A stretch of DNA of 64,000 nucleotides, taken from the IMG/VR virus record IMGVR_UViG_3300036944_000990, positions 1-64,000 of that record; one strand, given 5' to 3'. A model generated the notes under the pieces. It was not told where the DNA came from. It worked only from the letters and a program-made list of their open reading frames with translations, and searched no databases. Numbering within the stretch: the stretch's first letter is position 1; every line of letters begins with the position of its first letter. The translations under genes and the position numbers were made by a program. This document shows, in pieces, positions 26,425 to 44,425 of this stretch. Source of the DNA: a virus.

Positions 26425-28935
26425 ATGTCGCAGACCTACGTTTATCCATTCGACCCGACGGGCTCGTTGACTTCCAACGTGATCCCTAATGAACGGCATG
26501 TGCTGTCTGGGGTAACGGATCGTGAATTCAATTTCATCGTTCCCAAATTTGCACCGTTCTTTCGCAACAACTTGCGTATCCGTCATCTCGGCCTGGGTCG
26601 CGATTTGGTGGAAGGGGTGGATTACCACCTCACGCACTGGTTCCATGCAGCCTCCCACGGTGTGGGTCGTCCTGTTTATGGCTCTATCACTTTTATCGAC
26701 CGTAGCCTGACGGGCGTAGTCGAACTCCGCTACCAGACCATCGGTGGGGACTGGGTGTATGATGAGGGCACTGTCCTCGAACTGATGGCTAACCGCTTGA
26801 TGAACCCACGCATCACTACGTGGGAACAAGTAGTGGACTTGCCTTTCCAGTTCCCGGTCATCGACCACGAATGGGATCTGGATGACCTCACTGGCGCCAA
26901 AGAAGTCGTTGAAAAACTCGAAGGTATCACCGCTGCGATTAACGCGGCTAACGATGCCAACGGTACTTCTCACGTGGGTGACACCAACAACCCACACCGC
27001 GTCACCAAGCTACAAGTCGGTCTGGGGTTGGTTGAAAACTATCCAATGGCCAACATTGCTGAAGCCACCGCCGGTTTGAGCAATGAGCTGTATATGACCC
27101 CGGTTCGGGTGCGTAACTTCGTTGAGAACTACGTCAACCCACTGTTTGAAACTCACACACTGCGTAACGATAACCCTCACGGGGTGACGAAGACGCAAGT
27201 GGGTCTGGGTAATGTGCAGAACTATGGCGTAGCCACTGCTGAACAAACCGTCGCAGGAACGTCCAACACCCTGTACGTAACGCCTGTCGCCGTGAAGGCA
27301 ACACTTGATGCCAACGTGTTTCCTGTCATTACCGCCCACACCAACCGTAAGGATAATCCGCACGGCGTAACTAAAGCACAGGTTGGTCTGAATCTGGTTG
27401 AAAACCTACCTCTAGCCAATCAAGCAGAAGCCATTGCCGGTAGTCGCAACGACCGCTATATGACCCCATTGACGACTTACCAGATGGTCAGTCAGTACGT
27501 GGGAGAGGGGATGAACAACCACATCTCCAATCTGGACAACCCACACCGAGTGACTAAGGGTCAAGTAGGACTGGGTAACGTTCTGAACTACGGTGTTGCA
27601 ACCGATACGGAAATGGTTGTTGGTACGGCGGATAACCTGTATACCACTCCGAAAGGCGTGCGGGCTGCTATTGAAGAAATCGCACTGTCCACGTATCGCG
27701 ATCACACCAACGATGGTAACAACCCACACGGTACTACCAAAGCGCACGTGGGGTTGGGTAATGTCGATAACTACCCCACCGCCACCCGCGCCGAAGCAGT
27801 GGCCGGTACTGCTACTAACCGATTCATGACTCCCGCAACCACTCAAGCGATGCTTGAGAACATTGTAGGAGATTCGGTAGGTAGTCACGTGAGTCGTCAA
27901 GACAACCCTCACCAGGTCACGAAAGCACAGGTTGGTTTGGGTAGCGTTGACAACTTCGCAACAGCCAGTCAAGTCGAAGCAATGGAGGGCACTTCTGAGA
28001 CGTTGTTCATGACGCCTTACACCACGCTATTGGTTTCTCAAGGTGCTGCACGTGCGTTGGTTAAAGAACACAGTGATCGTAAGGACAACCCACACGGCGT
28101 AACTGCCGCTCAATTGGGTGCGGTGACGACTGAAGACCTGGCAACCCGACTGTTGGGTTATATGACCAACGGTAGTAAAGCCGATGACTCGGCTAAGCTT
28201 AACGGGTACACCTACGAGCAAATCATGGCGTCGGTGTCTGGTGGTCAGGCCGATGACACCTTGCGTTTTGGTGGCTATAATGTCGAGGAACTGCGCGATC
28301 TCTATGCTCCGTACTACGCCCCTTTGGCTACCAAGCTGGAAGGGAAGTCGCTGAGTGAAGTGGCAGAGTATGCGGGTAGTTTTGCTTTGGCAGCCCCGGT
28401 CCTTCAAAAAGCCCCTTACAACTCTCCGGATGCGTCGGTTGGTGGTTGGACCAAATTGTTCGAGACCACTCAAACTCAGTTCAGCTTTTTGCTTTCAATT
28501 ACAGGTGTGGAAAACGACAGACGGGTTGAAAGTTCGTTTGTGAGTTTCTACGACACCGAAATGGATACGGATAATGATAAACTTCTGCAACGCTTCTTTG
28601 TTGCTGGACGCTATCATCCCCATGAGGTGTATGTTAAGCGACTGGGGGGTGTGTACTCGGTTTGGGTGAAACACAATTCGGTGAAGGTGGGCCATATCAG
28701 TTGCGTCATCTCCGGAGTAGACCGTGTTGACGATATAGTTGTCGTGACAGAGAGCTACGATGAAGAGCCGGTCTGGGAAGACTTCGACCCAATGTACGAA
28801 GTCTTGTTGGACTCCTGTTCTGAGTCGGTGGACACTTTGATGACACTGTCCTCAGTGGAGCAATTGATCCAACTTCGTCTTGATGAACTTGCCGCAGAAA
28901 TGCGAGCTGAAGCACAAGCATCCATCGCCGACTGA
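26425..28935 (+). CDS. Tail fibre protein with seven DNPHxVTK repeats
   Basis: ATG at 26425 follows GGAG. The N-terminus (1-175) is likely the virion-attachment part. Residues about 185-570 hold seven copies of a ~60-residue unit built around NPHxVTKxQVGLGNVxNYxxA and a RYMTP/LYTTP-type segment. These repeats are standard in long phage tail fibres and form a trimeric shaft. The last ~260 residues lack repeats and should form the receptor-binding end; they contain SAKLNGYTYEQI and LATKLEGKSLSEV. It is paired with a second repeat fibre downstream. Confidence 0.85.
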   Translation: MSQTYVYPFDPTGSLTSNVIPNERHVLSGVTDREFNFIVPKFAPFFRNNLRIRHLGLGRDLVEGVDYHLTHWFHAASHGVGRPVYGSITFIDRSLTGVVELRYQTIGGDWVYDEGTVLELMANRLMNPRITTWEQVVDLPFQFPVIDHEWDLDDLTGAKEVVEKLEGITAAINAANDANGTSHVGDTNNPHRVTKLQVGLGLVENYPMANIAEATAGLSNELYMTPVRVRNFVENYVNPLFETHTLRNDNPHGVTKTQVGLGNVQNYGVATAEQTVAGTSNTLYVTPVAVKATLDANVFPVITAHTNRKDNPHGVTKAQVGLNLVENLPLANQAEAIAGSRNDRYMTPLTTYQMVSQYVGEGMNNHISNLDNPHRVTKGQVGLGNVLNYGVATDTEMVVGTADNLYTTPKGVRAAIEEIALSTYRDHTNDGNNPHGTTKAHVGLGNVDNYPTATRAEAVAGTATNRFMTPATTQAMLENIVGDSVGSHVSRQDNPHQVTKAQVGLGSVDNFATASQVEAMEGTSETLFMTPYTTLLVSQGAARALVKEHSDRKDNPHGVTAAQLGAVTTEDLATRLLGYMTNGSKADDSAKLNGYTYEQIMASVSGGQADDTLRFGGYNVEELRDLYAPYYAPLATKLEGKSLSEVAEYAGSFALAAPVLQKAPYNSPDASVGGWTKLFETTQTQFSFLLSITGVENDRRVESSFVSFYDTEMDTDNDKLLQRFFVAGRYHPHEVYVKRLGGVYSVWVKHNSVKVGHISCVISGVDRVDDIVVVTESYDEEPVWEDFDPMYEVLLDSCSESVDTLMTLSSVEQLIQLRLDELAAEMRAEAQASIAD
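26980..28122 (+). repeat. Seven protein-level fibre repeats
   Basis: Repeats of about 180 bases inside the fibre gene encode the NPHxVTKxQVGLGNV unit. They are diverged at DNA level, so they are old rather than recently copied. Confidence 0.8.
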
Positions 28936-28991: not shown

Positions 28992-30815
28992 ATGTCATCA
29001 ACATTGACACGGGGTCTTATTCTTAAGTACCCCATTGACCCAACAGCCGTCAACCCCAACAACAAAATTGTAGGGGAGGTACACGACTTGGGTGTCGGTA
29101 TCAACCGAGCCATCGTCCCTAACTACAGCGCCTTCTACAGTGAGTCGTTAGTGGTGCGGGTCGAGGACCGTGTTGATCCACTGGTGCCTAATGAGCACTA
29201 CATTGCAGCACAGCTTCACGCTGACGCCACCGCCAGTTTGAACCGTGAGGTTTGTATGGCGGTTGTGATCAAGGATCAGAACGTCATGGGTAAAATCACC
29301 CTCGAATACCAAACGGTAGGGGGTGATTTCAGTGTTTCGGTTGACGCGCTACGCCGAGCAATCGAAGACGAAGATCTGGATGAACGTACTGTCAGTTGGG
29401 GTGACATCATTGCCCGACCCAGTGCTTATCCACCTGCACCACACCTTCACGACATCGGTGACCTTTATGGTTTCGAATACGTCGTAGAGGCTCTGGAAGC
29501 TTTGCGGGCAGCCATTCTGATTGGTGACGAAGCCACTCACGAAGAGATTCGTCAGTGGGTGCGATATGAAGACAGTCTGTTACGAGACAGCATTGCTGAA
29601 ACCAATGCCAATCTCAACACCCACGTTCGCGACCAATCCAATCCACACGCGGTAACTAAAGCACAGGTGGGTTTGGGTAATGTCTTGAACTACGGGGTGG
29701 CTCAAACTGCCGACATGGTTGCAGCGACCAGCAATGCGCTGTACACCACACCAATCCGTGTTCGTGATGCTATCAACGAACACGCCATCAAACCGTTGAA
29801 CGCTCACATTGCCCGTACGGATAACCCGCACGCGGTAACTAAAGCACAGGTTGGTTTGGGATTGGTGGCCAACTACAACGTAGCATCTCAGGCCGACATG
29901 ATCGCCGGTACGTCGCCTTCGTTGTACACGACACCGATTCTGGTCAAACAAGCCATCGATGAACATGCACTCAAACCACTTAATGCTCACACTGCTCGGG
30001 TGGATAACCCACATGGTGTAACCAAAGCACAAGTCGGATTGGGTAATGTCTTGAACTATGGCGTGGCTAGCGAAGCGCAGGCCCGTGCGGGCACCAGTGA
30101 TTCGCTGTACATGACGGCATTGAAGACCGCACAAGCCATCAACGAACAAGCGTTGGTACCGCTCAATGCTCACACTGCTCGGGTGGATAACCCGCATGGT
30201 GTAACCAAAGCCCAGGTAGGGCTTGATAGCGTGGATAATTTCGCAACAGCAACTGAGGCAGAGGCTCGTACCGGGACGGTTAACAACCGCTTCATGACAC
30301 CGTTGCGTACCGCACAAGCGATTGCTACCCAAGCACTGACGCCACTTAATGCCCACATTGCGCGAGCAGACAACCCTCACGGGGTGACTAAAGCACAGGT
30401 AGGCTTGGGTAATGTGCAGAACTACAGTGTGGCCACTCAAGCGTTGGCAGAAGGTGCGACCGATAACGGTACATATATGACACCGTTGCGTACAGGTCAG
30501 GCTATCAACAATTTGGCAGTCGTGCCTTTGAACGCACACATCAACCGCAGCGATAACCCGCACAGTGTAACCAAAGTACAAGTGGGTCTTGGAAGCATTC
30601 CAAACTCAATTACCAACTCACGCGGTACGGACAGTAACGCTTCGTTGTTGACCGCAAAAGGGATGTTTGATCACGTGAACTCGGGTGATCACGATGGACG
30701 GTACGCTCCGAAGAACACCGCAGGCGTTGACTGTAGCGTTCATTGGAACGGATCGGGTGTGTATATCTGGGGTGGTGGTACTTGGCGACAGGTTTGGCCG
30801 GCTCAGTGGCAATGA
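28992..30815 (+). CDS. Tail fibre protein with six DNPHxVTK repeats
   Basis: ATG at 28992 follows GGAG. The N-terminal ~200 residues resemble those of the previous fibre in pattern (PYS/NYSAFYSESL, TLEYQTVGGDFS), then six DNPHxVTKAQVGLGNV units follow, more alike to one another than in the first fibre. The end is short and Trp-rich (SGVYIWGGGTWRQVW), which may be a small tip. It is the last gene before the radical-SAM cluster, and a natural candidate partner or target of that cluster. Confidence 0.85.
   Translation: MSSTLTRGLILKYPIDPTAVNPNNKIVGEVHDLGVGINRAIVPNYSAFYSESLVVRVEDRVDPLVPNEHYIAAQLHADATASLNREVCMAVVIKDQNVMGKITLEYQTVGGDFSVSVDALRRAIEDEDLDERTVSWGDIIARPSAYPPAPHLHDIGDLYGFEYVVEALEALRAAILIGDEATHEEIRQWVRYEDSLLRDSIAETNANLNTHVRDQSNPHAVTKAQVGLGNVLNYGVAQTADMVAATSNALYTTPIRVRDAINEHAIKPLNAHIARTDNPHAVTKAQVGLGLVANYNVASQADMIAGTSPSLYTTPILVKQAIDEHALKPLNAHTARVDNPHGVTKAQVGLGNVLNYGVASEAQARAGTSDSLYMTALKTAQAINEQALVPLNAHTARVDNPHGVTKAQVGLDSVDNFATATEAEARTGTVNNRFMTPLRTAQAIATQALTPLNAHIARADNPHGVTKAQVGLGNVQNYSVATQALAEGATDNGTYMTPLRTGQAINNLAVVPLNAHINRSDNPHSVTKVQVGLGSIPNSITNSRGTDSNASLLTAKGMFDHVNSGDHDGRYAPKNTAGVDCSVHWNGSGVYIWGGGTWRQVWPAQWQ
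29630..30600 (+). repeat. Six protein-level fibre repeats
   Basis: Units of about 180 bases, several with long identical stretches such as those around 29990 and 30170, which suggests more recent duplication or conversion than in the first fibre. Confidence 0.8.
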
Positions 30816-30911: not shown

Positions 30912-31406
30912 ATGTTTAATCAAATTCCCGATCTGGTACAAGAGTACATCGACCTGTGTCTGGCCTCCGACTATGCTAAGACCGAAGAAGTGGTCCGCAT
31001 GGTACCTATGCCCAACCGGGACGAGCGTGTGACGTCTGAGCGTTGCCACCTTTTGACTCACCCTCAAACCACCATGAAGATCGAGCGCTTCGAAGACTTC
31101 TGTCCTGAAGCTCGTGCTCTATGTGATTATTTTGCTGCCTTGTACAATCACAAAGGCCCTGTGACAGCACACATCTTTAACAGCCCCAAAGACGGCTTCA
31201 CTTTTGTAGAACACCTCGATCCCGACGATGTGGTGATCTATACAGTCTTTGGCACCAAGACAATGGTAATTGATGGCAAACCCGTTCGGATTGCTGCCGG
31301 TGAACACGTCTACATGAAAGCCAACACACCTCACTACGCCACCAATGAAGAAGCTTCGGTGATGATCAGCATTGGTCTTGAGAAATGGGTAAGGGACAAA
31401 CTATGA
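30912..31406 (+). CDS. JmjC-like cupin protein (putative Fe(II)/2OG oxygenase)
   Basis: ATG after GAGGA. The C-terminal half has the cupin_4/JmjC layout: VEHLDPDDVVIYTVFG with H101-x-D103 as metal ligands, then K116 in GTKTMVIDG, a G-E-H-V-Y-M turn, and H141 in ANTPHYATN as the third ligand. Proteins of this fold hydroxylate amino acid side chains in proteins or peptides using 2-oxoglutarate. The gene overlaps the next (radical-SAM) gene by four bases (ATGA), so the two are translationally coupled and probably act in one pathway. Fold call moderate to good; substrate unknown. Confidence 0.7.
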   Translation: MFNQIPDLVQEYIDLCLASDYAKTEEVVRMVPMPNRDERVTSERCHLLTHPQTTMKIERFEDFCPEARALCDYFAALYNHKGPVTAHIFNSPKDGFTFVEHLDPDDVVIYTVFGTKTMVIDGKPVRIAAGEHVYMKANTPHYATNEEASVMISIGLEKWVRDKL

Positions 31407-32449
31407 GCTACAAGACGCTCTACATCAAAACCACCGGCTCATGTAACCTTGATTGCAAACACTGTTTCACCGGCGGTAAGGGTGGTGACAAAACCCATTT
31501 CAATCCCGAGAAAACAGCACAATGGGTCAAAGACTACATTGAAGCTACCCCAGATGCGGTAAACTATCACCTCGAATTGCACGGTGGGGAACCCTTCTTG
31601 GTACCGGTAGCCAAACTCAAGCAGTTTGTCGACCACTTCAAAGACAACCCCAAAATCACCATCGGGGCCAACACCAACCTGACGTACAAGTTGACAGATG
31701 AGATCTTAGACTTCATCCAGACTTACTTGGGTAGTTCGATTGGAACCAGTTGGGACCCGTGGATTCGTTGGGCCAATGACAAACAGTACCAACTGTGGCT
31801 CAACAACATGAAACGCCTGCGGTCACTGAACGTCAGTCTCTACACGATCGTATCGGTCTCTAAGAGAATGACGGAACAGACGCCAGATTGGTTACTCGAT
31901 CAATTGGCAACGACCGGGGCGACCACAGTGTCACTTGAACGTTTAACGCTCTCAGGCAACGCCGAGCGCAATCCGGACGTTTTCCCAGACAACGAAGCCC
32001 AAGACTATTGGTATTTGGAATTGGTAAAGCGGTATCGGGAACGCAAAGCGGACCTACCGTACAACATCCGTACGTTGGATACCCTGATTGAGAAAGTCAA
32101 TCTTGGGATTGTCAAGACCGATACCAACTGTCGCAACTGTGAGCAGAACTTGGTAACGATCAACTCCAACGGCACTTTGGGTGGCTGTCCTAACGTGGCC
32201 AGTGAACACAAACATGCGACCCTTGATGACTCCGTCCAAACCTTCTTGGTTTCCGATGGACGTGTCAATGAGATCGTCAAAGAACTCAACTTCAACGACC
32301 CGTGTTACTACTGCGACGTGTTCGACATCTGCGGTGGTGACTGTCATCGTCTGCCTTGGCAGGGTGACCGGTGCGGTGGGCTTAAGCACACATTACGCTA
32401 CCTGTCGGGTCGAGTTACAGACTCCAACATCATTTTGAAGGTACGTTAA
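31403..32449 (+). CDS. Radical SAM/SPASM maturase 1
   Basis: Start is the ATG in the ATGA overlap. The 4Fe-4S motif CNLDCKHC is at residues 14-21 and the SAM-binding HGGEP at 60-64. The C-terminus has eight cysteines in SPASM order: C243, C246, C262, C301, C304, C310, C314 and C324, enough for two further iron-sulfur clusters. SPASM enzymes of this layout modify ribosomal peptides or proteins (thioether or C-C bonds, oxidation). The gene directly after it encodes the small protein with the Cys-rich tail. The family call is firm; the chemistry is not known. Confidence 0.9.
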   Translation: MSYKTLYIKTTGSCNLDCKHCFTGGKGGDKTHFNPEKTAQWVKDYIEATPDAVNYHLELHGGEPFLVPVAKLKQFVDHFKDNPKITIGANTNLTYKLTDEILDFIQTYLGSSIGTSWDPWIRWANDKQYQLWLNNMKRLRSLNVSLYTIVSVSKRMTEQTPDWLLDQLATTGATTVSLERLTLSGNAERNPDVFPDNEAQDYWYLELVKRYRERKADLPYNIRTLDTLIEKVNLGIVKTDTNCRNCEQNLVTINSNGTLGGCPNVASEHKHATLDDSVQTFLVSDGRVNEIVKELNFNDPCYYCDVFDICGGDCHRLPWQGDRCGGLKHTLRYLSGRVTDSNIILKVR

Positions 32450-32450
32450 T

Positions 32451-32990
32451 ATGGCACGTAATTTGGAAGCGGCTTGGACGGTGAACCGAGTCAACGCGCT
32501 GATTCGAGATCCGATCAACGCCAGAATTGCTTACGGCACCAACAACCCCCCACACGCCAATACGCCCAGTAGCTGGTTTGGGGGTACGACGGAAGGTTTG
32601 GGGGCGTTGGCGGTAGACAGTAACGTTCAAGGTACTGCCGGCGCTGCAAAGTTAAACAATATGATCCGCAACTACACTCGGTTGTTTAATCGCATCTGTC
32701 GTAAGCGCATGATCATCTACTACAATAACAACGGTTCTTTGCAAGTATGGAGTGATGTGACCGGTATCGGTAACTTCGCTACAGGGGTGGCCGCATCAGC
32801 AATCGCTTCCCCTGCGACAGAATTTAGCGCAGGGTCTAACATCCAAGAGGCGGCTCTTAACAGTCATCTCAACTCGATGTATACTTCATGGTGGAACAAC
32901 GCCGGCAACACCACTGTGGAAACCTTGACTTACACCGTTTGTCACACCTCGTGCCATTCGAACTGTAACTGTAACCGTGGTCGGAGATAA
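32451..32990 (+). CDS. Candidate modification substrate with Cys-rich C-terminus
   Basis: A 179-residue protein with AAGG before its ATG, one base after maturase 1. The body is rich in Asn, Ala, Gly and Trp with few charges, like a virion surface protein, and has one short basic patch (RICRKRM). The end reads VCHTSCHSNCNCNRGRR: cysteines 164, 168, 172 and 174 (C-x3-C-x3-C-x-C), two His after Cys, and an RGRR tail. Apart from one Cys at about 82 these are the only cysteines, so they are clustered on purpose. A short Cys-rich C-terminus next to a SPASM enzyme is the usual sign of a maturase substrate. Alternatives are a metal-binding tail or a disulfide knot on a tail-tip protein. Confidence 0.7.
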   Translation: MARNLEAAWTVNRVNALIRDPINARIAYGTNNPPHANTPSSWFGGTTEGLGALAVDSNVQGTAGAAKLNNMIRNYTRLFNRICRKRMIIYYNNNGSLQVWSDVTGIGNFATGVAASAIASPATEFSAGSNIQEAALNSHLNSMYTSWWNNAGNTTVETLTYTVCHTSCHSNCNCNRGRR

Positions 32991-32994
32991 TTAG

Positions 32995-33702
32995 ATGACT
33001 ACCCCTGTCGTTGTAATTGAAACAACAGCCCCGATACCCGTCGAACTACTCCGTCGTAAGTACACCGAAAACATCCGCTTTGTGATCGACTACTCCACCA
33101 GTCGTTTCAAAGGTCGGACGCTGATTAACTTCCTCAATAACGTGGGGATTGAATGTCAGCTCAAACTCGACAACAACCAAGAATCCTTGGACTTGGTCTC
33201 GGCGTACCTCAACCATCCAGCCGTGGTAGATATCCCAGATCTTAACGACGTGGTGATGAACCTCATGTTGGCTTTGGTTGGTGAGGAAAACTACTTGGCC
33301 TTCGAACCCGAAATGTTCCAAAAGTTCGTCGCTGATAATGAAGCCATTCTTAAAACGTGGTTTCGTCGTGTGGGCTCGATTGGACTATTTCCGTTCTATG
33401 TAAACAAAACCGTAGAGCGCAGCTTCATCGAACAGTTCCCTGTGGACGAGGATGCCTCGTTGCCTGGCTTGAGCTTTGTGCAATTGATGCGTCATCCGCT
33501 CTGGCCACTGTTGGTCAGTCACATTCCACAATCGGCATGGTGCGTTAACCCGACGTTCTTTAACGAGTACATCTTTGCTGGTATGAACTTGATGTACTAC
33601 TTCTCCAATCCTGACAACCCGCTTTGTATGGCCGCCATCACCCGTGATGAAGACCTGAATGAGACGCTCTTAACAGCGCTCAATGAAGCCGGGGAGGAAT
33701 AG
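32995..33702 (+). CDS. Unrecognised cluster protein, 235 aa
   Basis: ATG after GGAG, four bases behind the substrate candidate. A helical soluble protein (VIDYSTSRFKGRTLINFL, LMRHPLWPLLVSHIP) with two cysteines only at C53-like and near the end, so it is not itself an iron-sulfur enzyme. Its place between substrate and enzymes would suit a recognition or carrier protein, but no RRE-like winged-helix pattern is clear by eye. Confidence 0.6.
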   Translation: MTTPVVVIETTAPIPVELLRRKYTENIRFVIDYSTSRFKGRTLINFLNNVGIECQLKLDNNQESLDLVSAYLNHPAVVDIPDLNDVVMNLMLALVGEENYLAFEPEMFQKFVADNEAILKTWFRRVGSIGLFPFYVNKTVERSFIEQFPVDEDASLPGLSFVQLMRHPLWPLLVSHIPQSAWCVNPTFFNEYIFAGMNLMYYFSNPDNPLCMAAITRDEDLNETLLTALNEAGEE

Positions 33703-33705
33703 ACC

Positions 33706-34770
33706 ATGCTACACGTATTTGGCGACCTATACGTCGAAACTGAGTTCCGCGCCTACCCGACCGACAACCAGATCAATATCTCGATGAACACGGGGTTTGA
33801 GAAGGTTGCGCACCCGTTCGTTGAAAACGAAGGCAAGCAGTTTGGTTGGGCATTGAGCTTGGATGAATTCAGTAGTGAGAGTTTCTACGAACTTCTACGT
33901 GCCGCCGTTGACTCTGAACGTAAGGTAATGATTTACGTTGATTCAGAAACCTATGTTCGCTTCTACGCAGCTCTTCTCAAAGCGTTGCTACCCGGCATCA
34001 CCGAGGAAATGTTCAAACAGTTCTTCATCTGCATTAAGGCAACTTACGACCACTCCACCGTCAGCTTCTATGACAGTGTGATGGACCATTCGTTGGCCCT
34101 CAAGATCAATCGGGAATTGGTTGAACGTTATTGGACGTTTGAAGATCCTGAGATCGTCACTGCACTGCGCCGTCTTATCAACAGCGATCCCGACAAGATC
34201 TCTCTTGAGTGGCGAGTGATGAAGTTGTTCGGAACCGGTTACGTAGGTAAGGTGGCCAAGACCATCCAAAACATCATGCGCCGTACGGCAATCAGTAACA
34301 GTCACGACGCCATGGAAGATTGGGGGCGGGTGATCGTCGATCCTACGCGTTGGTCGGTCTCCGGGTGTACGGCAGACGGCTTGCTTGAAGCCGACTCCAC
34401 ATTCCAGGCCTGTGTCAATTTTGGCAATTTGTCTGACCCCGACTTGCGTATCCCAGGGGCGATGAAAAAGAAAGCCAGTCGAGCCTATTTGGTGGAGCTA
34501 CTCACCAACATCGAGAAAGTGTTGGTGGATACTGGTGATCTTGCTTCTGCCAACCGCAGTGCCAATCTGCGCAAAGCGTTGGAGGACGAGTCTGATATGT
34601 CAGACCCAGAGAATCTCAAGCGACGCATTCGCATGTTGTTCGATGGTGGTCCCGCCACTTTCCGCCTCGCCAACCTGGATGCTGCCAAGTACAACGAGAA
34701 CTTGATCCGCACCGTCATTCGTCTGCCTGAAGACCTCATCAAGGACTTGTTGAAAGGAGCCGCCTGGTGA
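33706..34770 (+). CDS. Unrecognised cluster protein, 354 aa
   Basis: ATG after GGAGG; its stop overlaps the GTG of the next gene (GTGA), so it is coupled to radical-SAM protein 2. A mixed alpha/beta start (MLHVFGDLYVETEF, VMIYVDSETYVRFYAALL) is followed by a basic helical second half. No catalytic motif, no membrane helix. It may be a scaffold, chaperone or substrate of the modification enzymes. Confidence 0.6.
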   Translation: MLHVFGDLYVETEFRAYPTDNQINISMNTGFEKVAHPFVENEGKQFGWALSLDEFSSESFYELLRAAVDSERKVMIYVDSETYVRFYAALLKALLPGITEEMFKQFFICIKATYDHSTVSFYDSVMDHSLALKINRELVERYWTFEDPEIVTALRRLINSDPDKISLEWRVMKLFGTGYVGKVAKTIQNIMRRTAISNSHDAMEDWGRVIVDPTRWSVSGCTADGLLEADSTFQACVNFGNLSDPDLRIPGAMKKKASRAYLVELLTNIEKVLVDTGDLASANRSANLRKALEDESDMSDPENLKRRIRMLFDGGPATFRLANLDAAKYNENLIRTVIRLPEDLIKDLLKGAAW

Positions 34771-35765
34771 ATAACCTCATCCCTATCGTCGACGTACTAG
34801 CAGACAAAAAAGGAGAACAGAAGGAAGCTCATTTGATCCTGTTTGAGTACTGTAATCTTCGGTGTAGTTTCTGTCACCAAGACCACGACTCGAAGGTGGG
34901 GATGTCGGCCGACGCCATGTGGGAGAAGGTGTATGCATTGTTTGCAAACACCAACCCCAGTGACCCGTACGTGGTGAACATCACCGGTGGGGAGTTGTTC
35001 TTGGATGAATATCCGGACGACTACTTCGACGTTTACTACGGGATCGCACGTCGGATCTTCGAACACTACGATGACGTGGTGGTGGTTTTTGGGGCGAACT
35101 TGGTGTACGAGAACATTGAACGGGTGGTGCGGTTGCTTGAGCAGCTTAAACCACACGGTAAAGTACAGCTTGCCACCTCGTATGACCCAGCCGGCCGTTT
35201 TGACCGAGAGTCGTTCATGCTTTTCATGCACAACTTAACGCAAGTTAAGGAGTACGTAGAGACCGTGAACGTCGTGATCACTCGACAGAACATCGAAACC
35301 ATTTTGGCTGGGAGAGAAACCGCTACGCTTGACTGGTTGTGTGATAACTTCCAAGTGTTCTTCGACCACTATATCCCCAGCGCACAGTTCGAACGTATCC
35401 AGCCTTCTGAAGATCAGATTGGTAAACTTTACCTGTACCTGAACGAACATCACCCTAATTCCTATCCACTGATCAGTTGGAAAGAGAATTACCGTAACGT
35501 GACCACGTGTCGCTCTACGAAGATCGTAAACAAGGACGGGGTAGTTACAACCTGTTGGTCTGAAGCGGGTAAAGATGCAGTCTTGGATGAGCAGGCCGGA
35601 TTGCTGGCGAAGAATGCGGCTGAGGAGCGTTTTCTTGAGCACTACGAGTGTTTCTCGTGTGAGTACTATCAACGGTGCGGGTTACGGTGTTTCTTGCATC
35701 ACAGCTTCGTTGAGGGTACTACGAGCGAGTGTCAGATAAAAGAAATGTTCCGCAAGATCCTGTAA
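34767..35765 (+). CDS. Radical SAM/SPASM-like protein 2
   Basis: GTG start in a GTGA overlap with GGAG upstream. The cluster motif CNLRCSFC is at residues 29-36 and TGGEL at 73-77. C-terminal cysteines C248, C263, C295, C298, C304, C308 and C322 give a SPASM-like set (CFSCEYYQRCGLRC). Length and layout fit peptide/protein maturases. Last gene before a GNRA hairpin, so it ends the first transcription unit of the cluster. Confidence 0.88.
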   Translation: MNNLIPIVDVLADKKGEQKEAHLILFEYCNLRCSFCHQDHDSKVGMSADAMWEKVYALFANTNPSDPYVVNITGGELFLDEYPDDYFDVYYGIARRIFEHYDDVVVVFGANLVYENIERVVRLLEQLKPHGKVQLATSYDPAGRFDRESFMLFMHNLTQVKEYVETVNVVITRQNIETILAGRETATLDWLCDNFQVFFDHYIPSAQFERIQPSEDQIGKLYLYLNEHHPNSYPLISWKENYRNVTTCRSTKIVNKDGVVTTCWSEAGKDAVLDEQAGLLAKNAAEERFLEHYECFSCEYYQRCGLRCFLHHSFVEGTTSECQIKEMFRKIL

Positions 35766-35770
35766 GTGAC

Positions 35771-35818
35771 GGCATAACGGACCGGGGGAAACCCTGGTCC
35801 GAAATGTCTGTTATGTCC
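35771..35818 (+). terminator. GNRA hairpin with GGCATAA/TTATG arms
   Basis: Stem CGGACCGGGG (one G-T pair) with GAAA loop, between GGCATAA and TTATGTCC. It divides the cluster into two transcription units. Confidence 0.7.
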
Positions 35819-35842
35819 GATCATTATTTACCAGCAGTCGAG

Positions 35843-35852
35843 ATGGTATAAT
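35843..35852 (+). promoter_or_regulatory. Promoter-like ATGGTATAAT
   Basis: A TATAAT -10-like box 19 bases before the ATG at 35871, with the ATGGTATA core also seen at 26391 and 62352. A -35-like TTTACC lies upstream but at short spacing (14). Confidence 0.4.
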
Positions 35853-35870
35853 AAAACTTAGGAGTCTGTC

Positions 35871-36965
35871 ATGGATCTCATAATCAAAGGCACTTCAAAA
35901 TGTAACTACCGTTGTACTTTCTGTAGCTCCACAGTGCTGTCCGATGACCATAACGATGTGTTGGATATTGCATACATCGATCGCTTCGTACAGCGCTTTG
36001 CAGACACGTTAAACACGGTGATTGTCAACGGTGGTGACCCGTTAATGCTTCCCGTACAGTACTACTGGGACATTCTGGACATTCTGGCCAAATACAACTG
36101 TGAAGCCAAACTCTCGTTCACCAGTAACCTCTGGGCGTTCTATAAAAAGCCTGATCTGTGGACCGACTTGTTTCGCCACCCACAAGTAGGTGTGATCACC
36201 TCATTCCAGTATGGTGACAAGCGCCTTAAGGGCGACCGCACACCGTTTACCGAAGCTGAGTTCTGGGCTATCTCAGATCTGTTTTTGGACCGCGTTGGTT
36301 ATCGACCTGAGTTCATTGCCGTCATTGACCAAGACAATGAACACACCGTCTTGCAAACGGTTGAGTTGGCCAAAGCTATGGGGGTGGAATGTAAGATCAA
36401 CCACGTCCTAGCCTCAGGACCTGAAGTCAACAAGCAGGGTGTGGTGATGGGGAGTGCAAAGAACTTCTTCACCCAAGCCGACATCTACGAACATTACATT
36501 CAGATCATCGAGGCAGGCTTAGGGGAGTGGGAGTACAACTGCAAGCAACTGACAAAGAAGTTGCGTGGCGGTCACACCACCTGCCCTTTAAGTCGTAGTT
36601 GTGATGCCGGTATACGCACACTCCAACCAGACGGCTCCTACTACAGCTGTGGCGCGTTTGGTGACGACCGCACCCATCGTATAGACTTCGATCAGGAAAT
36701 GGCTTCAGCGGCCTTACAGACGCCTTTACAGGACGATCCTGACCTCGATACAATGAAGCTTGCGTGTTATGCTTGTCCGATGTTCGAAATCTGCAATGGG
36801 TGCCGCAAAACCATTGCCGACACTAAGAGGTTTGGGTTACAAGAACACCAGTGTCGCAAGATGAAATCCCTAGCCCCCAAGATCATCGAACTCAACGGTT
36901 TGGTTGGTGTGTTAGAGCCGACCCCGTATGAAGACGAAAGTCTTGAGCTAATCTTTAAAGGATGA
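35871..36965 (+). CDS. Radical SAM/SPASM protein 3
   Basis: ATG after AGGAG. CNYRCTFC at residues 11-18, NGGDP at 53-57 (GGD in place of GGE), and C-terminal cysteines C299, C302, C308, C311 and C328 (CYACPMFEICNGC), with two more Cys in TTCPLSRSC before them. SPASM maturase layout. First gene of the second unit of the cluster; three bases separate it from protein 4. Confidence 0.88.
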   Translation: MDLIIKGTSKCNYRCTFCSSTVLSDDHNDVLDIAYIDRFVQRFADTLNTVIVNGGDPLMLPVQYYWDILDILAKYNCEAKLSFTSNLWAFYKKPDLWTDLFRHPQVGVITSFQYGDKRLKGDRTPFTEAEFWAISDLFLDRVGYRPEFIAVIDQDNEHTVLQTVELAKAMGVECKINHVLASGPEVNKQGVVMGSAKNFFTQADIYEHYIQIIEAGLGEWEYNCKQLTKKLRGGHTTCPLSRSCDAGIRTLQPDGSYYSCGAFGDDRTHRIDFDQEMASAALQTPLQDDPDLDTMKLACYACPMFEICNGCRKTIADTKRFGLQEHQCRKMKSLAPKIIELNGLVGVLEPTPYEDESLELIFKG

Positions 36966-36968
36966 CCT

Positions 36969-37916
36969 ATGAATTCTCAAAATCCTGAACTGACGATTTC
37001 CCTGAATCCATGGTATTATTGTAACCTTGCGTGCGACTTCTGTTATCTGACACCTGAGCAGTTAAACGACAAACAAAAAATCGACCCCGACGTTTTGGCT
37101 CGGCGGTTAGATGAAGTGCTCGAAGCCGGCTATGACATCACCCACGTCGACTTGTATGGGGGTGAACCGAGCCTGTTACCCAAAGCGTATATGGATGAGT
37201 TGAAGCTCACCCTGTTCTCCCGTGGCGTGACGGACATTGTAGTCCACACCAACCTGACGGCTATTAACGACATCGTACTTGATGAAGACTATGAGTTGTC
37301 TGTCTCGTATGACTTCACCTCACGCGAGAAGCACGACCTGGTGTTCAACAACATGTTGTCACTGGAGCGTCGGTACAACGTGTTGACCTTGGCCTCGCGT
37401 ACATTACTGGATACCTTAAGTGCCGATGAGTTTGTCCGCACCTTTAACCTGTTAACTAACGCACGGTTCATCGAGATCAAACCGTACTCGACCAACCAAG
37501 CCAATCAACAAAACGTTCAGTTCGATGAATTCGAACAATTGGTTTATGGGGTAATCAACCACCCTGATCGTTTGTTTGAGTTTGAAAACCAGCGCCTTAT
37601 CGAAACAGCGTTGTCAGGTGAGCGTAACGCGTTTAGTGACGATCACTTGTATATCACCCCAAGGGGTGAGTTTGCAGTGCTGGACTTTGACCTGAATGAC
37701 AATGAGTATTTCAGGCCAATGGCATCGCTTGACGAATACCACCGTTGGTGCGAAAACGAAAAGCGTAAAGTCAACACCAACAGCATCTGCAATAGCTGCC
37801 AGTTCAAAGGCCATTGTCTGTCTGAGCACCTACGAGACGTGAAGTCTTTGGAGCGCTCCTGCAATGGATTTCACAACCTACTCGTAAGGTATCAACGCGA
37901 TGTTTGTTCAACATAG
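36969..37916 (+). CDS. Radical SAM protein 4
   Basis: ATG after AAGGA. CNLACDFC at residues 18-25 and YGGEP at 63-67. The C-terminal cysteines are fewer: C274, C277, C283 and C298 (C-x2-C-x5-C-x14-C), enough for one auxiliary cluster as in twitch-type enzymes. The same spacing recurs in proteins 5 and 6, so 4-6 look like one lineage. Overlaps protein 5 by 17 bases. Confidence 0.85.
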   Translation: MNSQNPELTISLNPWYYCNLACDFCYLTPEQLNDKQKIDPDVLARRLDEVLEAGYDITHVDLYGGEPSLLPKAYMDELKLTLFSRGVTDIVVHTNLTAINDIVLDEDYELSVSYDFTSREKHDLVFNNMLSLERRYNVLTLASRTLLDTLSADEFVRTFNLLTNARFIEIKPYSTNQANQQNVQFDEFEQLVYGVINHPDRLFEFENQRLIETALSGERNAFSDDHLYITPRGEFAVLDFDLNDNEYFRPMASLDEYHRWCENEKRKVNTNSICNSCQFKGHCLSEHLRDVKSLERSCNGFHNLLVRYQRDVCST

Positions 37917-38925
37917 ACAACGTCTTGAAATCACTCTGGACATGTTTCGTGGCTGTGCTCACAGCTGTAGTGGATGTATGGTTGATCGTACACTTGGTGG
38001 TGCGGTCGACGACTTAGTGCCGTTACAAGCACTGTTGCAGGAAATGGTTGCAGCTGGCTTTGTGGCCTTCGACGTAGGGATTGGTCCTACTGACTTTATG
38101 TCAGCTGATAACGTTGATGAGCTGATGTATCACCCGGTGTTTCAAGAGATCGCTCAGATGTTTGAGCAGGTCACTTTTCAAACCGCACTGTTGGATAAGA
38201 ACTTCGACAACTACACTGAGATGTGTCGGATAGTCGATGAAACCTGTCCGGGCAAAGCGATTCGTTTTTTGATTCCAGGTGCACCGGATTTTTTCAAGAC
38301 GCGAAAGTTCGGCGACATGGTGGTGAAGAAACTCAACCATGTCAAGAGCACTCTGAAGTCTGCGTACTTGAACGAAGCAGGTTTTGTGATCAATTGTACT
38401 CGAGATACTGTGGGTGAGCAATTTGATACATCTTTACATCGTATGTTCGATGTTGAGTTTCCTGTCGACAAAGACGACATCCTGAACATCCCGTACGGAC
38501 GTAGTAAAAGTATCGACATCATGCTTGGGCAGAACGTGAAAACAATCAGTCACCGCATCAGTCAGTACTACACAACCTTGGATGTAGACAACGAGCGTTT
38601 CCGTAATCCTGATCGTCATGAAGACACAGGAACCATGCAGAACCTACTCTACACCGACGGAAAGTTGTATTGGGTACCGTTCTTAAAGGATGACTTCGCT
38701 TTTTTGAATGATGCTTTCGTGATCCCAAGACCATGGACCATGGATGCGGTTCTCACAGCGCGTACGGCGGCTATACAGAAGAGCTTGGACTTCCTACAAG
38801 GTACTGAATGTCTGAGTTGTCCGTTGTTGCCCAGTTGTTCTGAGAAAGGCATCACCACCATCATGCGTATGTTGTCAGTACGTGACTGTATTGTGGGAGA
38901 TGAGCATGTTCGTAGCCCAGAGTGA
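37900..38925 (+). CDS. Divergent radical SAM protein 5 (GPTD in place of GGE)
   Basis: Start in an overlap with protein 4. The cluster motif is CAHSCSGC (residues 19-26). Where a GGE motif should stand, the protein has IGPTD (61-65), so SAM is held differently or the protein has lost or changed its chemistry. C-terminal cysteines C304, C307, C313 and C330 keep the twitch-like spacing of protein 4. It is clearly related to protein 6, with which it shares GPTD and an LNHVKS/NHNQ-type end. Confidence 0.8.
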   Translation: MFVQHRQRLEITLDMFRGCAHSCSGCMVDRTLGGAVDDLVPLQALLQEMVAAGFVAFDVGIGPTDFMSADNVDELMYHPVFQEIAQMFEQVTFQTALLDKNFDNYTEMCRIVDETCPGKAIRFLIPGAPDFFKTRKFGDMVVKKLNHVKSTLKSAYLNEAGFVINCTRDTVGEQFDTSLHRMFDVEFPVDKDDILNIPYGRSKSIDIMLGQNVKTISHRISQYYTTLDVDNERFRNPDRHEDTGTMQNLLYTDGKLYWVPFLKDDFAFLNDAFVIPRPWTMDAVLTARTAAIQKSLDFLQGTECLSCPLLPSCSEKGITTIMRMLSVRDCIVGDEHVRSPE

Positions 38926-39946
38926 TGAGGCCTTTAACATCCAGCTGGAGATTTTAAAGGACTGCGGTTATTCGTGTCAGGACTGTGCCATCGACAAAAG
39001 CAAAACCAGTGATTACATGCGAGTCGGGGATGATGACTTGTTAATCCGAGCGGCCGACGAGTTTAAGGACCACGGCTTTCGGTTACATGAATTTACCCTA
39101 GGTCCAACTGACATCATCTCCTCAAAGTCCGGTTTGGGGATCTTTGATCGCTACGTCGTGAAGGAATTGACGCAGCGTTATGATTCACTCACTGTGTCCT
39201 TGGCGTTGTTGTTTGATCGTCAGTTAGTGGAGTTGGCACGCACAGTTGATCGTGTGATGCGGGGCAAGAAGTTTCGACTGATTGTCCCACTCACCATTCG
39301 TAATGCCCACAACGAGAAGTTCTTGAACCTGATTCGTCAGCGGATTAAAGTCATCAAGGACAACTTGTTTGAGACTGATTTTTATATGGTCTATATCGGC
39401 ATTAATATGGTCAACGCTTCGGCTGAAGCATTTAACTTCGACAACAACAAACTGGTTCACGATCTGGATGTTGGGGTTCACCAGACGGTGGAGTACAACT
39501 TCCCTCATTCCCGAATGGGGTTAGAACAACACCGTGCGGCGTTCTTAAACGACCTTCAAGCGTTTATTAACGGTCTACACGAAACAGTAGACCGTGACGC
39601 TAACTACAACCGGTTTCTGGTTCCTAATATCAAAGACAGCATTGAGACCATCTACTACCAAGGTGATCTTTATTATGTCCCAAGCTTAATCGAAAAGTTC
39701 CCGTTGTTCGAACCTACGTTTAAGTTAGCCAGACCCTACTCGATGTCAAGCGTCTTACAATTTAAGTACGACCTCTACACCGAGAACCTGTTGGAGTATA
39801 GCGACAAGCAACCCTGTTCCGATTGTTGTTTTGTTGATGAGTGTGCCCGTGGTGACATACATGTCATCATGCGTAAACTTAACCACAATCAATGTTTACT
39901 TGACATGAAAAACAGGTGGGATCAACCTACCCCAAGGATTCGTTAG
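38906..39946 (+). CDS. Divergent radical SAM protein 6 (GPTD in place of GGE)
   Basis: I chose ATG 38906 because GGGAG lies six bases upstream; earlier in-frame starts lack this spacing. CGYSCQDC is at residues 20-27 and LGPTD at 65-69. C-terminal cysteines C304, C307, C308, C313 and C330. Paralogue of protein 5; the pair may act as a heterodimer, one subunit perhaps being catalytic. The next gene starts directly after its stop. Confidence 0.8.
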   Translation: MFVAQSDEAFNIQLEILKDCGYSCQDCAIDKSKTSDYMRVGDDDLLIRAADEFKDHGFRLHEFTLGPTDIISSKSGLGIFDRYVVKELTQRYDSLTVSLALLFDRQLVELARTVDRVMRGKKFRLIVPLTIRNAHNEKFLNLIRQRIKVIKDNLFETDFYMVYIGINMVNASAEAFNFDNNKLVHDLDVGVHQTVEYNFPHSRMGLEQHRAAFLNDLQAFINGLHETVDRDANYNRFLVPNIKDSIETIYYQGDLYYVPSLIEKFPLFEPTFKLARPYSMSSVLQFKYDLYTENLLEYSDKQPCSDCCFVDECARGDIHVIMRKLNHNQCLLDMKNRWDQPTPRIR

Positions 39947-40396
39947 ATGTCCACTCAACCCCCTTATAAAGAATATCAGTACCTGTATCGGGAGCTGGTA
40001 GAAGAACACGACGATGCGATCGACAAAGTTCCATCCGTTGTGACAGAAAACACCCTCGAGGAAAAACTACGAGGGGCTATGGCGTACTTTGAAGCACAAA
40101 GCTTTCCCATTATCTATCCTGGCAAAAGCTATGGGGTGGCTGTGGTGTACGCCTATCACATCTTGCGTGATTACAACATTCCAGTACTTGAGACGTTAAA
40201 CGAGTCGGACTTGTTCTTAGGTGAGGACCCCTACTTTGTGGTCTATCAGGACGATCCTGAAACTTATGACCGGTTACTGGAAAAACTCCAACCCCTAGGT
40301 GACATTACCGAGTTAGGCTGGGCGAAGCAAACCAGCGAGTACTATCGTTTGGAATGTACCGCCGAGGGCTTGGCTGAAGTCATGGCGCGAGGTTAA
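39947..40396 (+). CDS. Unrecognised cluster protein, 149 aa
   Basis: ATG after AGGA, directly following protein 6. An acidic protein (QYLYRELVEEHDDAID, PYFVVYQDDPETYDRLLEKL) with a mixed alpha/beta pattern, no cysteine cluster and one Cys near the end. A small partner protein that recognises the substrate is possible but not shown. Confidence 0.55.
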   Translation: MSTQPPYKEYQYLYRELVEEHDDAIDKVPSVVTENTLEEKLRGAMAYFEAQSFPIIYPGKSYGVAVVYAYHILRDYNIPVLETLNESDLFLGEDPYFVVYQDDPETYDRLLEKLQPLGDITELGWAKQTSEYYRLECTAEGLAEVMARG

Positions 40397-40397
40397 G

Positions 40398-40958
40398 GTG
40401 AATACATATATCAATCCTTGGAACATCGTTGTTGGCCGTATCAATGTAGCTGACCAGTTTGACATGAAAGAATTCTACGATGAAGTCTTTCTGCTTCAAG
40501 CTATGGCCGGACAAGAAGACCCCTCTCAAGAACGTTTGGACCCTGAGCTACTACCGACCCTGATGAACATGCGCGATAACGTCGTCACACCGGCTGTAGT
40601 ACAGTACGCTCAAGATGTTTGGGAGTACACGATCCCGAAGATCGAAGTTGAGACCAATGCCAAGTGGATTCCAGAAGGTGAGGGTTTGTTTCCTCATTAC
40701 CACGCTGGTAGTTGTCTGTCCGCTATCTGCTATCCTCAAGACTCTGAGTCGGGGATTAACTTCTTTGATCCTCGTGGACATGCCTGTCGAGGGTATCCAA
40801 AAGAGATTCGTGATCGGTTCTTTGCGGCATGGAAAGTCTCACCCAGAGCTGGCGACATCTACATCTTTCCAAGTTACATACAGCACAGTGTTTCTTATGT
40901 AAAAGAAGACGTACGGCTGTCTTTGCTTCACGAATACTACCTGCGTGAAAACGTATAA
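40398..40958 (+). CDS. Putative 2OG-Fe(II) oxygenase A
   Basis: GTG start at 40398 with GAGG upstream. The C-terminal half follows the pattern of the TIGR02466-type 2OG oxygenases: H100-x-H102 in FPHYHAGSCLSAI, D124 in NFFDPRG, GDIYIFPSYIQH with H163, and R173 in DVRLSL for 2-oxoglutarate. These enzymes hydroxylate proteins or small molecules. It is a close paralogue of the next gene, so the cluster contains a matched pair plus the JmjC-like protein. Confidence 0.72.
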   Translation: MNTYINPWNIVVGRINVADQFDMKEFYDEVFLLQAMAGQEDPSQERLDPELLPTLMNMRDNVVTPAVVQYAQDVWEYTIPKIEVETNAKWIPEGEGLFPHYHAGSCLSAICYPQDSESGINFFDPRGHACRGYPKEIRDRFFAAWKVSPRAGDIYIFPSYIQHSVSYVKEDVRLSLLHEYYLRENV

Positions 40959-40978
40959 CTCATAAGGAAAAATTCAAC

Positions 40979-41533
40979 ATGCAAATGCAACTCCTCACTC
41001 CTTGGGCTATTCAGATCGGTCGCGTCAATTTGAAAGAACTCATCGATGCTGACGCCATCGCCACTGAGATCCACACCCTACACCTGGTTTCGCCACGAGA
41101 GTCCACCATTCCGTATGAAGTCAACGAGCAAGAGTTTCCAGTGATCTGTGCGGCCCGCGACACGGTAATCGAAAAAGCCGTACGCGAATTCATTGTTAAG
41201 GTTTTTGCCCACTCTCCAAAGAACCTCAAAATCGATACCTTCGGTAAAGCATTCGAGAAATACGAAGGGCTAGATGCCCATCTTCACGGTAACAGTAACG
41301 TGACCACGGTGTACTATCCGTACGCCAGTGATAGTGGCATTCGCTTTTTCGATCCTCGGGGCAATGCCTCTCGCGGCTATCCACGAAGCATTCGCGATAG
41401 CCATTTCGGGGAGTTGTACATTCAACCCGAAGCCGGCGATCTGTTGATCGTACCGAGTTACGTACAGCACAGTGTGGCCCACGCTACTGAAGATGTACGT
41501 CTCTCGTTGGTCAATGATTTCTTCTTCGATTGA
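40979..41533 (+). CDS. Putative 2OG-Fe(II) oxygenase B
   Basis: ATG after AAGGA. Same motif order as oxygenase A: H101-x-H103 in AHLHGNS, D125 in RFFDPRG, GDLLIVPSYVQH with H164, R174 in DVRLSL. Both start with a short PWxIxxGRxN strand. The two proteins may modify different sites or act on the same one in turn. Ends at a UUCG hairpin. Confidence 0.72.
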   Translation: MQMQLLTPWAIQIGRVNLKELIDADAIATEIHTLHLVSPRESTIPYEVNEQEFPVICAARDTVIEKAVREFIVKVFAHSPKNLKIDTFGKAFEKYEGLDAHLHGNSNVTTVYYPYASDSGIRFFDPRGNASRGYPRSIRDSHFGELYIQPEAGDLLIVPSYVQHSVAHATEDVRLSLVNDFFFD

Positions 41534-41609: not shown

Positions 41610-42110
41610 ATGAAACTTAAGTTTAATGGGGTGTGGAAACAAAGTTTACTGAGGATTAAACACCTCGGTGCTTGGCGCTCACCTTACAGAACCATGATAA
41701 AGCGCAATGGTGTGTGGAAAGACGATCACCTAAGAGGGATGTTGAACAGTCTGTATAACGGCACGGTTAACGTAGGTTCCTCAGTTGGTTGGGACTACAC
41801 CGCGTATGGATGGTTGGTTAATGGCTTTGGTACAACCAACAGCAACACCACCAAGTTCGTAAACAAGGTAGGAGCAATTATCACGGGAACCAAGCCCTAC
41901 TATAACTCACCACCTTTTCAATGGTTGGAGATGGCTGTAGAGGGAGATTTGATGGGGGTGGCTAATCAGATTGGCGATATCACAGTAAATGGTATCGCTG
42001 GTCGGTTGGTGAGTATCAGTAACGGTAATAGTGCAGGTGCCAGTACCTTTATTGGTTGGGTGTTTGATCAACCCCTTCCTACTTCTGGACAATGGATCAT
42101 CAATACTTAA
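41610..42110 (+). CDS. W-motif adhesin-like protein C, 166 aa
   Basis: ATG after GAGGAGG. The start MKLKFNGVWKQSLLRIK, then GAWRSPYRTM and NGVWKDD, repeats the W-motif seen in the genes at 23649 and 24306. The rest is Gly/Asn/Trp-rich beta structure (SVGWDYTAYGWLVNGFGT). It follows the modification cluster, so like the Cys-tail protein it may be a virion protein handled by it. Confidence 0.65.
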   Translation: MKLKFNGVWKQSLLRIKHLGAWRSPYRTMIKRNGVWKDDHLRGMLNSLYNGTVNVGSSVGWDYTAYGWLVNGFGTTNSNTTKFVNKVGAIITGTKPYYNSPPFQWLEMAVEGDLMGVANQIGDITVNGIAGRLVSISNGNSAGASTFIGWVFDQPLPTSGQWIINT

Positions 42111-44053: not shown

Positions 44054-44425
44054 TTATTTACCTCGCAAGTTGACCCTCTTGGCCGTTTCCTCATACCATT
44101 TCTGGAAAGATTCTTGCGTTGCAAAACAAAGACCCAGGTTTTTAGTCTGGATCATGTACGCCAATGAAGCCATCAACAGCTGTTCTTCAGGGGTTGCTCG
44201 GTTGAACGCTTCGAGATCCGGCGGGGGTTGTACCGGTGCTTTTCTTTGGTACTCCGGTGGGATCTGGCTTGGGAGGTCCGTTGAGGGATTGGGTGGAGGC
44301 ATACGCGTTCCACATCCCGTTGATAGCAGAGCTAGCAATATCAGGACGAATACTAGCAACAGTGTTTTGAGGTTCGGGCTTTTTGGCGTTGACGGCCAGC
44401 TCGTACCGAAACTTAGTGAGCACAT
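44054..44425 (-). CDS. Outer-membrane spanin (Rz1-like lipoprotein)
   Basis: ATG at 44425 has GAGG six bases upstream and starts inside the i-spanin gene in another frame. A hydrophobic signal (residues about 21-37, LLLVFVLILLALLSTGC) ends in a lipobox-like STGC with the lipid-attached Cys at 38. The mature part is Pro-rich (MPPPNPSTDLPSQIPP). This is typical of the outer-membrane half of the two-part spanin that fuses the membranes at lysis. Confidence 0.8.
   Translation of the reverse strand: MCSLSFGTSWPSTPKSPNLKTLLLVFVLILLALLSTGCGTRMPPPNPSTDLPSQIPPEYQRKAPVQPPPDLEAFNRATPEEQLLMASLAYMIQTKNLGLCFATQESFQKWYEETAKRVNLRGK

Follow-up and report, generated by a model that had tools for sequence, protein, structure and literature searches.

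A radical-SAM and oxygenase gene cluster in viruses and predatory bacteria, and its probable substrate, a protein ending in Cys-His-x-Ser repeats

The stretch of DNA analysed here (the window) comprises bases 1-64,000 of the virus record IMGVR_UViG_3300036944_000990, which is 131,545 bases long and is probably a fragment. An earlier note, made from the sequence alone, had pointed to twelve tightly packed open reading frames (ORFs) at positions 30912-41533: six radical S-adenosylmethionine (SAM) enzymes (here rS1 to rS6), a JmjC-like cupin, two 2-oxoglutarate (2OG) oxygenase-like proteins, three further proteins (U1, U2 and U3), and a small Cys-tailed protein, which we call the tail protein. 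We found all twelve ORFs at the claimed positions on the plus strand (Table 1), together with the overlaps between them (ATGA at 31403, GTGA at 34767, 17 bases at 37900-37916 and 20 bases at 38906-38925), and the description as two units is fair because a 105-base gap separates 35765 from 35871. The cluster probably encodes a phage module for post-translational modification, with the phage's own tail protein as its substrate.

The tail protein is recognised by its last residues. Its relatives, which range from 102 to 364 amino acids, end in a near-invariant CHxSCHxSCHxSRGRR on otherwise divergent bodies; the window's tail (CHTSCHSNCNCNRGRR) is a slight variant whose third CH unit has N instead of H, the sole such case in 160 tails. 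Ser occupies position -13 in 149 of these tails, at a site that our search pattern left free, and Gly occupies position -3 in 153, where the pattern permitted several residues. Across 25 jumbo-phage relatives, mean pairwise identity was 69% for rS1, 41% for the body of the tail protein and 80% for its last 16 residues, and over all loci the bodies sorted into nine BLAST groups. Apart from the tail protein, the window's own record holds no other supported CHxxCH protein.

To judge from sequence, the genes for rS1 and the tail protein are adjacent and nearly inseparable. A search based on rS1, and blind to the tail protein, returned relatives from 27 viral contigs in IMG/VR, and in 25 of them the gene directly 3' of rS1 encodes a protein that ends in Cys-His repeats. 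The other two are locus L024, which stops inside the maturase, and locus L026, where an S74 domain comes after the repeats; all 26 testable loci thus agree. A second blind search, with the single U1 protein of a marine phage as query, selected 17 loci, every one of which carries rS1 and then the CHxS-tail gene, in that order, upstream of U1. Among isolated phages the module is carried by DT01, by FLC6, FLC8 and S13, and by Atu_ph07 and Phosso, and a CHxS-repeat protein is encoded directly 3' of rS1 in DT01, FLC6, Atu_ph07 and Phosso.

We also ran a degenerate DNA pattern for the tail (CHxxCHxxCHxxRxRR-stop) on viral contigs. It matched at least 120 viral stretches with 144 tails, all of them in-frame protein C-termini, and a control pattern (CH changed to HC, arginines permuted) gave no matches on viral contigs. 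A pattern with four CH units matched mainly out-of-frame or low-complexity repeats, with few genuine extended tails. More than 100 loci show this gene order, so the cluster is not a chance arrangement, and the outcome that the earlier note would have counted against itself, that relatives never occur together, is excluded.

Structure prediction separates the tail protein into two parts. In an AlphaFold model (rows from phage records were left out of the input alignments), the body of the window's protein is confident, with a predicted local distance difference test (pLDDT) score of 86.8 and a predicted template modelling score of 0.81, and the tail is disordered, the last 10-residue blocks having pLDDT of about 72 and 53. 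No Pfam or NCBIfam model covers the protein, a PDB sequence search returned nothing, and a PDB fold search gave no match with E below 0.1. Foldseek against BFVD yielded six matches with E below 0.001, including a 296-residue Atu_ph07 protein (E=9e-5, 15% identity) and a 178-residue protein of the same length as the DT01 homologue. Because these matches link the window's model to the Atu_ph07 protein, the tail-protein bodies are predicted to share one fold that BLAST does not detect. Three larger proteins of Myoviridae sp. ctijX18 (A0A8S5USJ8, A0A8S5USV2 and A0A8S5USJ7) were also matched and have the same predicted body fold.

Four of the six proposed radical-SAM enzymes, rS1 to rS4, are clear by motif and profile; rS5 and rS6 are divergent, and their membership is putative. 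All of rS1 to rS4 have CxxxCxxC and match PHROG 1802 (E from 1e-57 to 1e-35). Against the Pfam model PF04055, rS3 and rS4 score over the cut-off, rS1 falls 0.1 bit under it and rS2 is also under; in a Pfam search of the whole record, three radical-SAM ORFs were over the cut-off. NCBIfam gives maturase matches for rS1 to rS4 and a weak SPASM match for rS2 and rS3. Nearly all of 106 rS1 relatives have 8-9 Cys within the last 110 residues, and the SPASM model TIGR04085 scores 34.5 bits (cut-off 27) on a marine rS1. No rSAM model in Pfam or NCBIfam matches rS5 or rS6, and we term them radical-SAM-like because profile comparison with rS1 by hhalign is weak (probability 10%, E=0.003); their CxxxCxxC and four C-terminal Cys are invariant across 24 aligned relatives.

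The assignments of the oxygenases held up. In the cupin, an HxD...K...H pattern (H101, D103, K116 and H141) is 99-100% conserved in 89 relatives, which gives the metal triad and Lys as expected for a JmjC-type oxygenase, and the score against JmjC_2 is 20.4 bits, slightly under the cut-off of 22. Both 2OG oxygenase-like proteins exceed the cut-off of 27 for PF13759 (2OG-FeII_Oxy_5). U1 gives a confident AlphaFold model (pLDDT 93.3) with no PDB sequence match and no PDB fold match at E below 0.1, and U2 has no match in Pfam or by PDB sequence search. PHROG 35144 and PHROG 20767 are families that carry no function annotation.

Table 1. Features of the cluster and of the flanking fibre genes, with positions in the window.
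Feature	Position	Strand	Evidence
Flanking tail-fibre-type virion protein	26425..28935	+	DNPHGVTKxQVGLGNV repeats; PHROG 2163 virion structural, PHROG 13857 tail protein, E<1e-149
Second tail-fibre-type virion protein, directly 5' of cluster	28992..30815	+	PHROG 2163 E=2e-185
Cupin, candidate JmjC-type Fe(II)-2OG oxygenase	30912..31406	+	Cupin_2 33.5 bits, cut-off 27.2
rS1, radical-SAM/SPASM maturase, directly 5' of tail gene	31403..32449	+	PF04055 29.4 bits; CNLDCKHC; 8 C-terminal Cys; 27 IMG/VR relatives
CHxS-tail protein, proposed substrate; ordered body and disordered C-terminal tail CHTSCHSNCNCNRGRR	32451..32990	+	Tail invariance
C-terminal tail codons CHTSCHSNCNCNRGRR	32940..32987	+	Pattern matches 32940-32957 and 32952-32969
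U1, near-universal partner	32995..33702	+	PHROG 20767; 134 loci
U2, frequent partner	33706..34770	+	100 loci
rS2, radical-SAM/SPASM enzyme	34767..35765	+	PHROG 1802 E=2e-37; CNLRCSFC
rS3, radical-SAM/SPASM enzyme	35871..36965	+	PF04055 36.9 bits
rS4, radical-SAM enzyme	36969..37916	+	PF04055 39.4 bits
rS5, divergent radical-SAM-like protein	37900..38925	+	CAHSCSGC and 4 C-terminal Cys, invariant in 24 relatives
rS6, divergent radical-SAM-like protein, rS5 paralogue	38906..39946	+	PHROG 31457 common to rS5; CGYSCQDC
U3, small partner	39947..40396	+	PHROG 20737; 38 loci
2OG-Fe(II) oxygenase 1	40398..40958	+	PF13759 44.0 bits
2OG-Fe(II) oxygenase 2	40979..41533	+	PF13759 41.0 bits

We counted family matches over about 150 loci, with radical-SAM counts that overlap between subfamilies. 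The tail protein was found at 153 loci, rS1 at 138, the cupin at 91, rS5/rS6 at about 72 and the oxygenases at 59; counts for U1, U2 and U3 are in Table 1. The usual order is cupin, rS1, tail protein, U1, U2 and rS2, followed by rS3, rS4, U3 and the oxygenases in varying order. A second type of module (L040, L059, L097, L115 and others) has two short tandem tail proteins of about 125-140 amino acids and then rS5/rS6-type genes. The FLC6 cluster holds two genes annotated as dihydrofolate reductase among its radical-SAM genes (L033:21316-22529).

The surroundings of the module connect it to the virion. The upstream neighbours are tail-fibre-type virion proteins by PHROG match, as the earlier note had it; its downstream "adhesin" at 41610-42110 has no family support. 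The same pair of fibre genes likewise precedes the cluster in jumbo relatives, where the module follows fibre genes, and in an 86.5-kb marine phage T4-type baseplate wedge and fibre genes lie upstream of it. Shortly 3' of the cluster the window encodes a baseplate-hub-like protein (42126-42836; PHROG 196, PHROG 4928). Farther on, on the minus strand, two overlapping ORFs at 44054-44720 resemble by eye an Rz/Rz1 spanin pair, one lipoprotein-like and the other a membrane-anchored coiled coil.

In the isolated phage Atu_ph07 the connection can be set against published proteomics. Electrospray ionization tandem mass spectrometry of its virions placed the virion proteins in clusters of coding sequences (CDS) 31-76, 170-215 and 284-329 (PMC6102473). 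The numbering of that paper agrees with RefSeq, gp215 being the major head protein in both, so gp170, the Atu_ph07 tail protein, opens the cluster CDS 170-215 defined by mass spectrometry. Its C-terminal peptide ends DFCHSSCHASCHNSRSRR. U1 (gp169), rS2 (gp168) and rS3 (gp165) fall outside the virion cluster.

Fusions of the tail point in the same direction. At L026:11053-12000 the CHxS repeats run into a fused S74 intramolecular chaperone with SDERLK (E=1.5e-11), and after self-cleavage of this domain the mature protein would end in the repeats; the window's tail protein itself has no S74 domain. At L273:1-1239, on the minus strand, a Hint domain starts directly after the CHxS repeats. At L227:1642-2865, also on the minus strand, a PT-rich linker comes after the repeats and leads, by eye, to a possible Hint-like end. 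In pelagimyophages, radical-SAM cassettes had already been recorded within the host-recognition island, without an explanation (PMC7029224). Phage S13, one of the carriers of the module, is dependent on flagella (PMC11898562); we take this as a lead and not as evidence.

Copies of the cluster are also found outside viruses. A search of bacterial and archaeal genomes (257 billion bases) gave 17 matches to the tail pattern, of which two, in Frankia and Pseudoalteromonas, are not protein C-termini and were set aside as chance. In the phylum of locus L174, eight of 291 sampled genomes have the tail motif, once each, and those with names are mostly Bdellovibrionaceae and Bacteriovoracaceae. Stretches from five of the eight place the cluster amid ordinary chromosomal genes. 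Five Bdellovibrionota genomes (L186, L187, L188, L190 and L176) have an S74 fibre gene next to the cluster, and some of these S74 genes have a prepilin-like N-terminus. In four of the five, a protein of 184-209 amino acids with no recognised family adjoins the S74 gene. Most Bdellovibrionota copies group with a few environmental ones in the rS1 tree and L176 is placed elsewhere, and this split suggests more than one transfer of the cluster. Predatory bacteria and viruses may have exchanged the genes of the pathway.

From these observations we propose the following pathway. The maturase rS1, of the radical-SAM/SPASM peptide-maturase type, would act on the exposed, disordered Cys-His-x-Ser repeats, with U1 and perhaps U2 presenting the substrate. 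Its target would probably be Cys or His, and the product a thioether, a C-C cross-link or an oxidised Cys. Chemistry centred on Cys or His is expected by analogy because rS1 is nearest, at low scores, to the anaerobic sulfatase maturases (anSME), PapB, YhhB and AmcB, and because a marine homologue matches TIGR04115. The remaining radical-SAM enzymes, the JmjC-type cupin and the 2OG oxygenases could modify the tail further, for instance by hydroxylating His, Ser or Arg of the repeats or of RGRR. The finished protein would then become part of the tail fibre or baseplate, and its remodelled tail, at the mature C-terminus, would work in contact with the host surface.

The earlier note's proposal of a dedicated pathway acting on a virion protein is thus supported by the linkage of rS1 to the tail gene, the fibre and baseplate neighbours, the position of gp170 and the S74 fusion in L026, and its Cys-tailed protein is the likely substrate. 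Several points weigh on the other side. The modification is what we infer from the genes. The presence of gp170 in virions is suggested by the boundary of the cluster and not read from the peptide table, and a location at the fibre tip is suggested by neighbours and fusions. The scores of rS1 lie far under every curated maturase cut-off, the best in NCBIfam being 57.9 bits against 349 for an anaerobic sulfatase maturase, and the window's rS1, like those of L152, L097 and L174, reaches no curated NCBIfam RiPP (ribosomally synthesized and post-translationally modified peptide) maturase cut-off; no specific chemistry can therefore be assigned. The ties of rS5 and rS6 to the radical-SAM superfamily are weak, and the number of accessory enzymes differs between phages.

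Other explanations of the same genes are possible, and we consider each of them improbable. The Cys-His repeats could be a tail that binds a metal, an Fe-S cluster or haem, with the radical-SAM and oxygenase genes maturing a metal or redox site and no covalent cross-link being formed. The fixed spacing of the three Cys and three His would suit such a site, and some phage fibres and spikes bear His-bound iron. We nevertheless find this unlikely, since the enzymes, up to six of them radical-SAM, would be needless for simple metal binding and none of the twelve genes was recognised as coding for a haem lyase or metallochaperone. Attachment of haem c in particular was judged unlikely on the spacing of the Cys, which is CxxxCH and not the usual CxxCH.

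A slightly poorer candidate is that the tail protein is a RiPP-like precursor, whose modified C-terminal repeats are cleaved off to act as a free bacteriocin or signal and take no part in the virion. RiPP loci classically place a radical-SAM/SPASM maturase next to a Cys-rich repeat at a C-terminus, the maturase gene is indeed encoded beside a protein with a C-terminal modifiable core, and the repeats can be expanded, to 13-14 CH units with NVPV/NVV spacers at L011:11036-11740 and L023:11043-11726. The logic of a RiPP is reversed here, however: the putative core is near-invariant while the N-terminal part varies. That part is predicted to be a folded domain, and tail proteins of 102-364 amino acids with such a body do not have the short leader-plus-core form of a precursor. 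No leader protease or exporter appears among the family matches of the twelve cluster genes, and the S74 fusion and the virion cluster favour a structural protein.

We give less credence again to the idea that these are auxiliary metabolic genes, whose products would target host metabolites, host proteins or DNA, with the tail protein a coincidental neighbour. Radical-SAM and 2OG enzymes are common auxiliary genes of phages, which lends the idea some weight, and the six radical-SAM genes of DT01 were read in this way, as DNA repair and host metabolism (PMC8541153). It sits poorly with an adjacency of the tail gene and rS1 that is kept in unrelated phages and in the chromosomes of predatory bacteria. 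Least credible of all is a modified protein that stays in or on the infected cell, for example to block superinfection: pelagimyophage host-recognition islands do also carry surface-altering genes (PMC7029224), but the window's protein has no apparent signal peptide or membrane anchor in its sequence, and the S74 fusion and the virion cluster defined by mass spectrometry (PMC6102473) indicate particles.

We return to modification of the phage's own tail protein, and we lean towards the wider view that a multi-enzyme radical-SAM and Fe/2OG pathway in viruses and predatory bacteria puts unusual covalent chemistry on the Cys-His-x-Ser tail of an adhesive fibre protein. If this is correct, jumbo phages, T4-like marine phages and Bdellovibrionota would share the first known case of a virion protein matured by radical-SAM enzymes that a virus encodes, and radical-SAM peptide chemistry would reach beyond small natural products to virus particles. 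About 10 kb would be spent on remodelling one structural protein, an outlay that would imply an important role of the modified tail in adsorption or entry. Radical-SAM, 2OG-oxygenase and cupin genes now classed as auxiliary metabolic would gain a function, new modifying enzymes would become available with a known recognition tag (the tail motif itself), and the Bdellovibrionota parallel would mean that a single adhesive chemistry connects phage adsorption with bacterial predation. The isolated phages that carry the system make the reading directly testable.

The earlier note knew of no described phage system of this kind, and in the open-access literature that we searched (phage RiPPs, His-Xaa-Ser, and radical SAM with tail fibres; subscription journals lay largely outside it) we found no description of the motif or the pathway. 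The same genes or kinds of genes have been annotated in DT01, FLC6, S13, RP12/RP31 and pelagimyophage islands (PMC8541153, PMC8066314, PMC11898562, PMC5468394, PMC7029224), where they are filed as accessory or host-metabolism genes and the substrate, tail motif and pathway went unrecognised. We rate the system as new as a biological system, built of enzymes that belong to known superfamilies.

Several known systems resemble it in part. The CXXX-repeat radical-SAM target system (TIGR04115 maturase, TIGR04117 target) also has Cys at every fourth residue of a C-terminal repeat and an adjoining radical-SAM/SPASM maturase; a marine rS1 scores 33.8 bits against TIGR04115 (cut-off 350) and one repeat protein 15.7 against TIGR04117 (cut-off 50), whereas here His and Ser are also fixed, and there are a folded body, a viral fibre setting and extra radical-SAM and oxygenase genes. 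The His-Xaa-Ser system (HxsA/B/C/D) pairs HxS repeats with several radical-SAM enzymes, and HxsB is among the weak matches of rS1, but at 29.9 bits against a cut-off of 370, with no match to HxsA or HxsD, and the present repeats contain Cys and are found in phages. The cyclophane, darobactin and ranthipeptide (PapB) maturases share the superfamily and the SPASM architecture, and rS1 scores 42.8-57.2 bits to PapB, DarE, YhhB and AmcB, well under the cut-offs; their substrates are short peptides with cleaved leaders. The anSME provide the top NCBIfam match of rS1 and relatives in PDB 4k37, and their target is a Cys or Ser in a folded protein; here the score stays under the cut-off of 349, there is no sulfatase, and the tail has no CxPxR motif. 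Finally, the mosaic adhesive trimer (MAT) fibres of Bdellovibrio (PMC10769870) have no described radical-SAM modification, and several S74 neighbours here have a prepilin-like N-terminus; the cluster-adjacent S74 genes appear related to the MAT adhesins by domain content only, the MAT fibres being of the S74 type with SDxxxK, as are the Bdellovibrionota neighbours and the L026 fusion.

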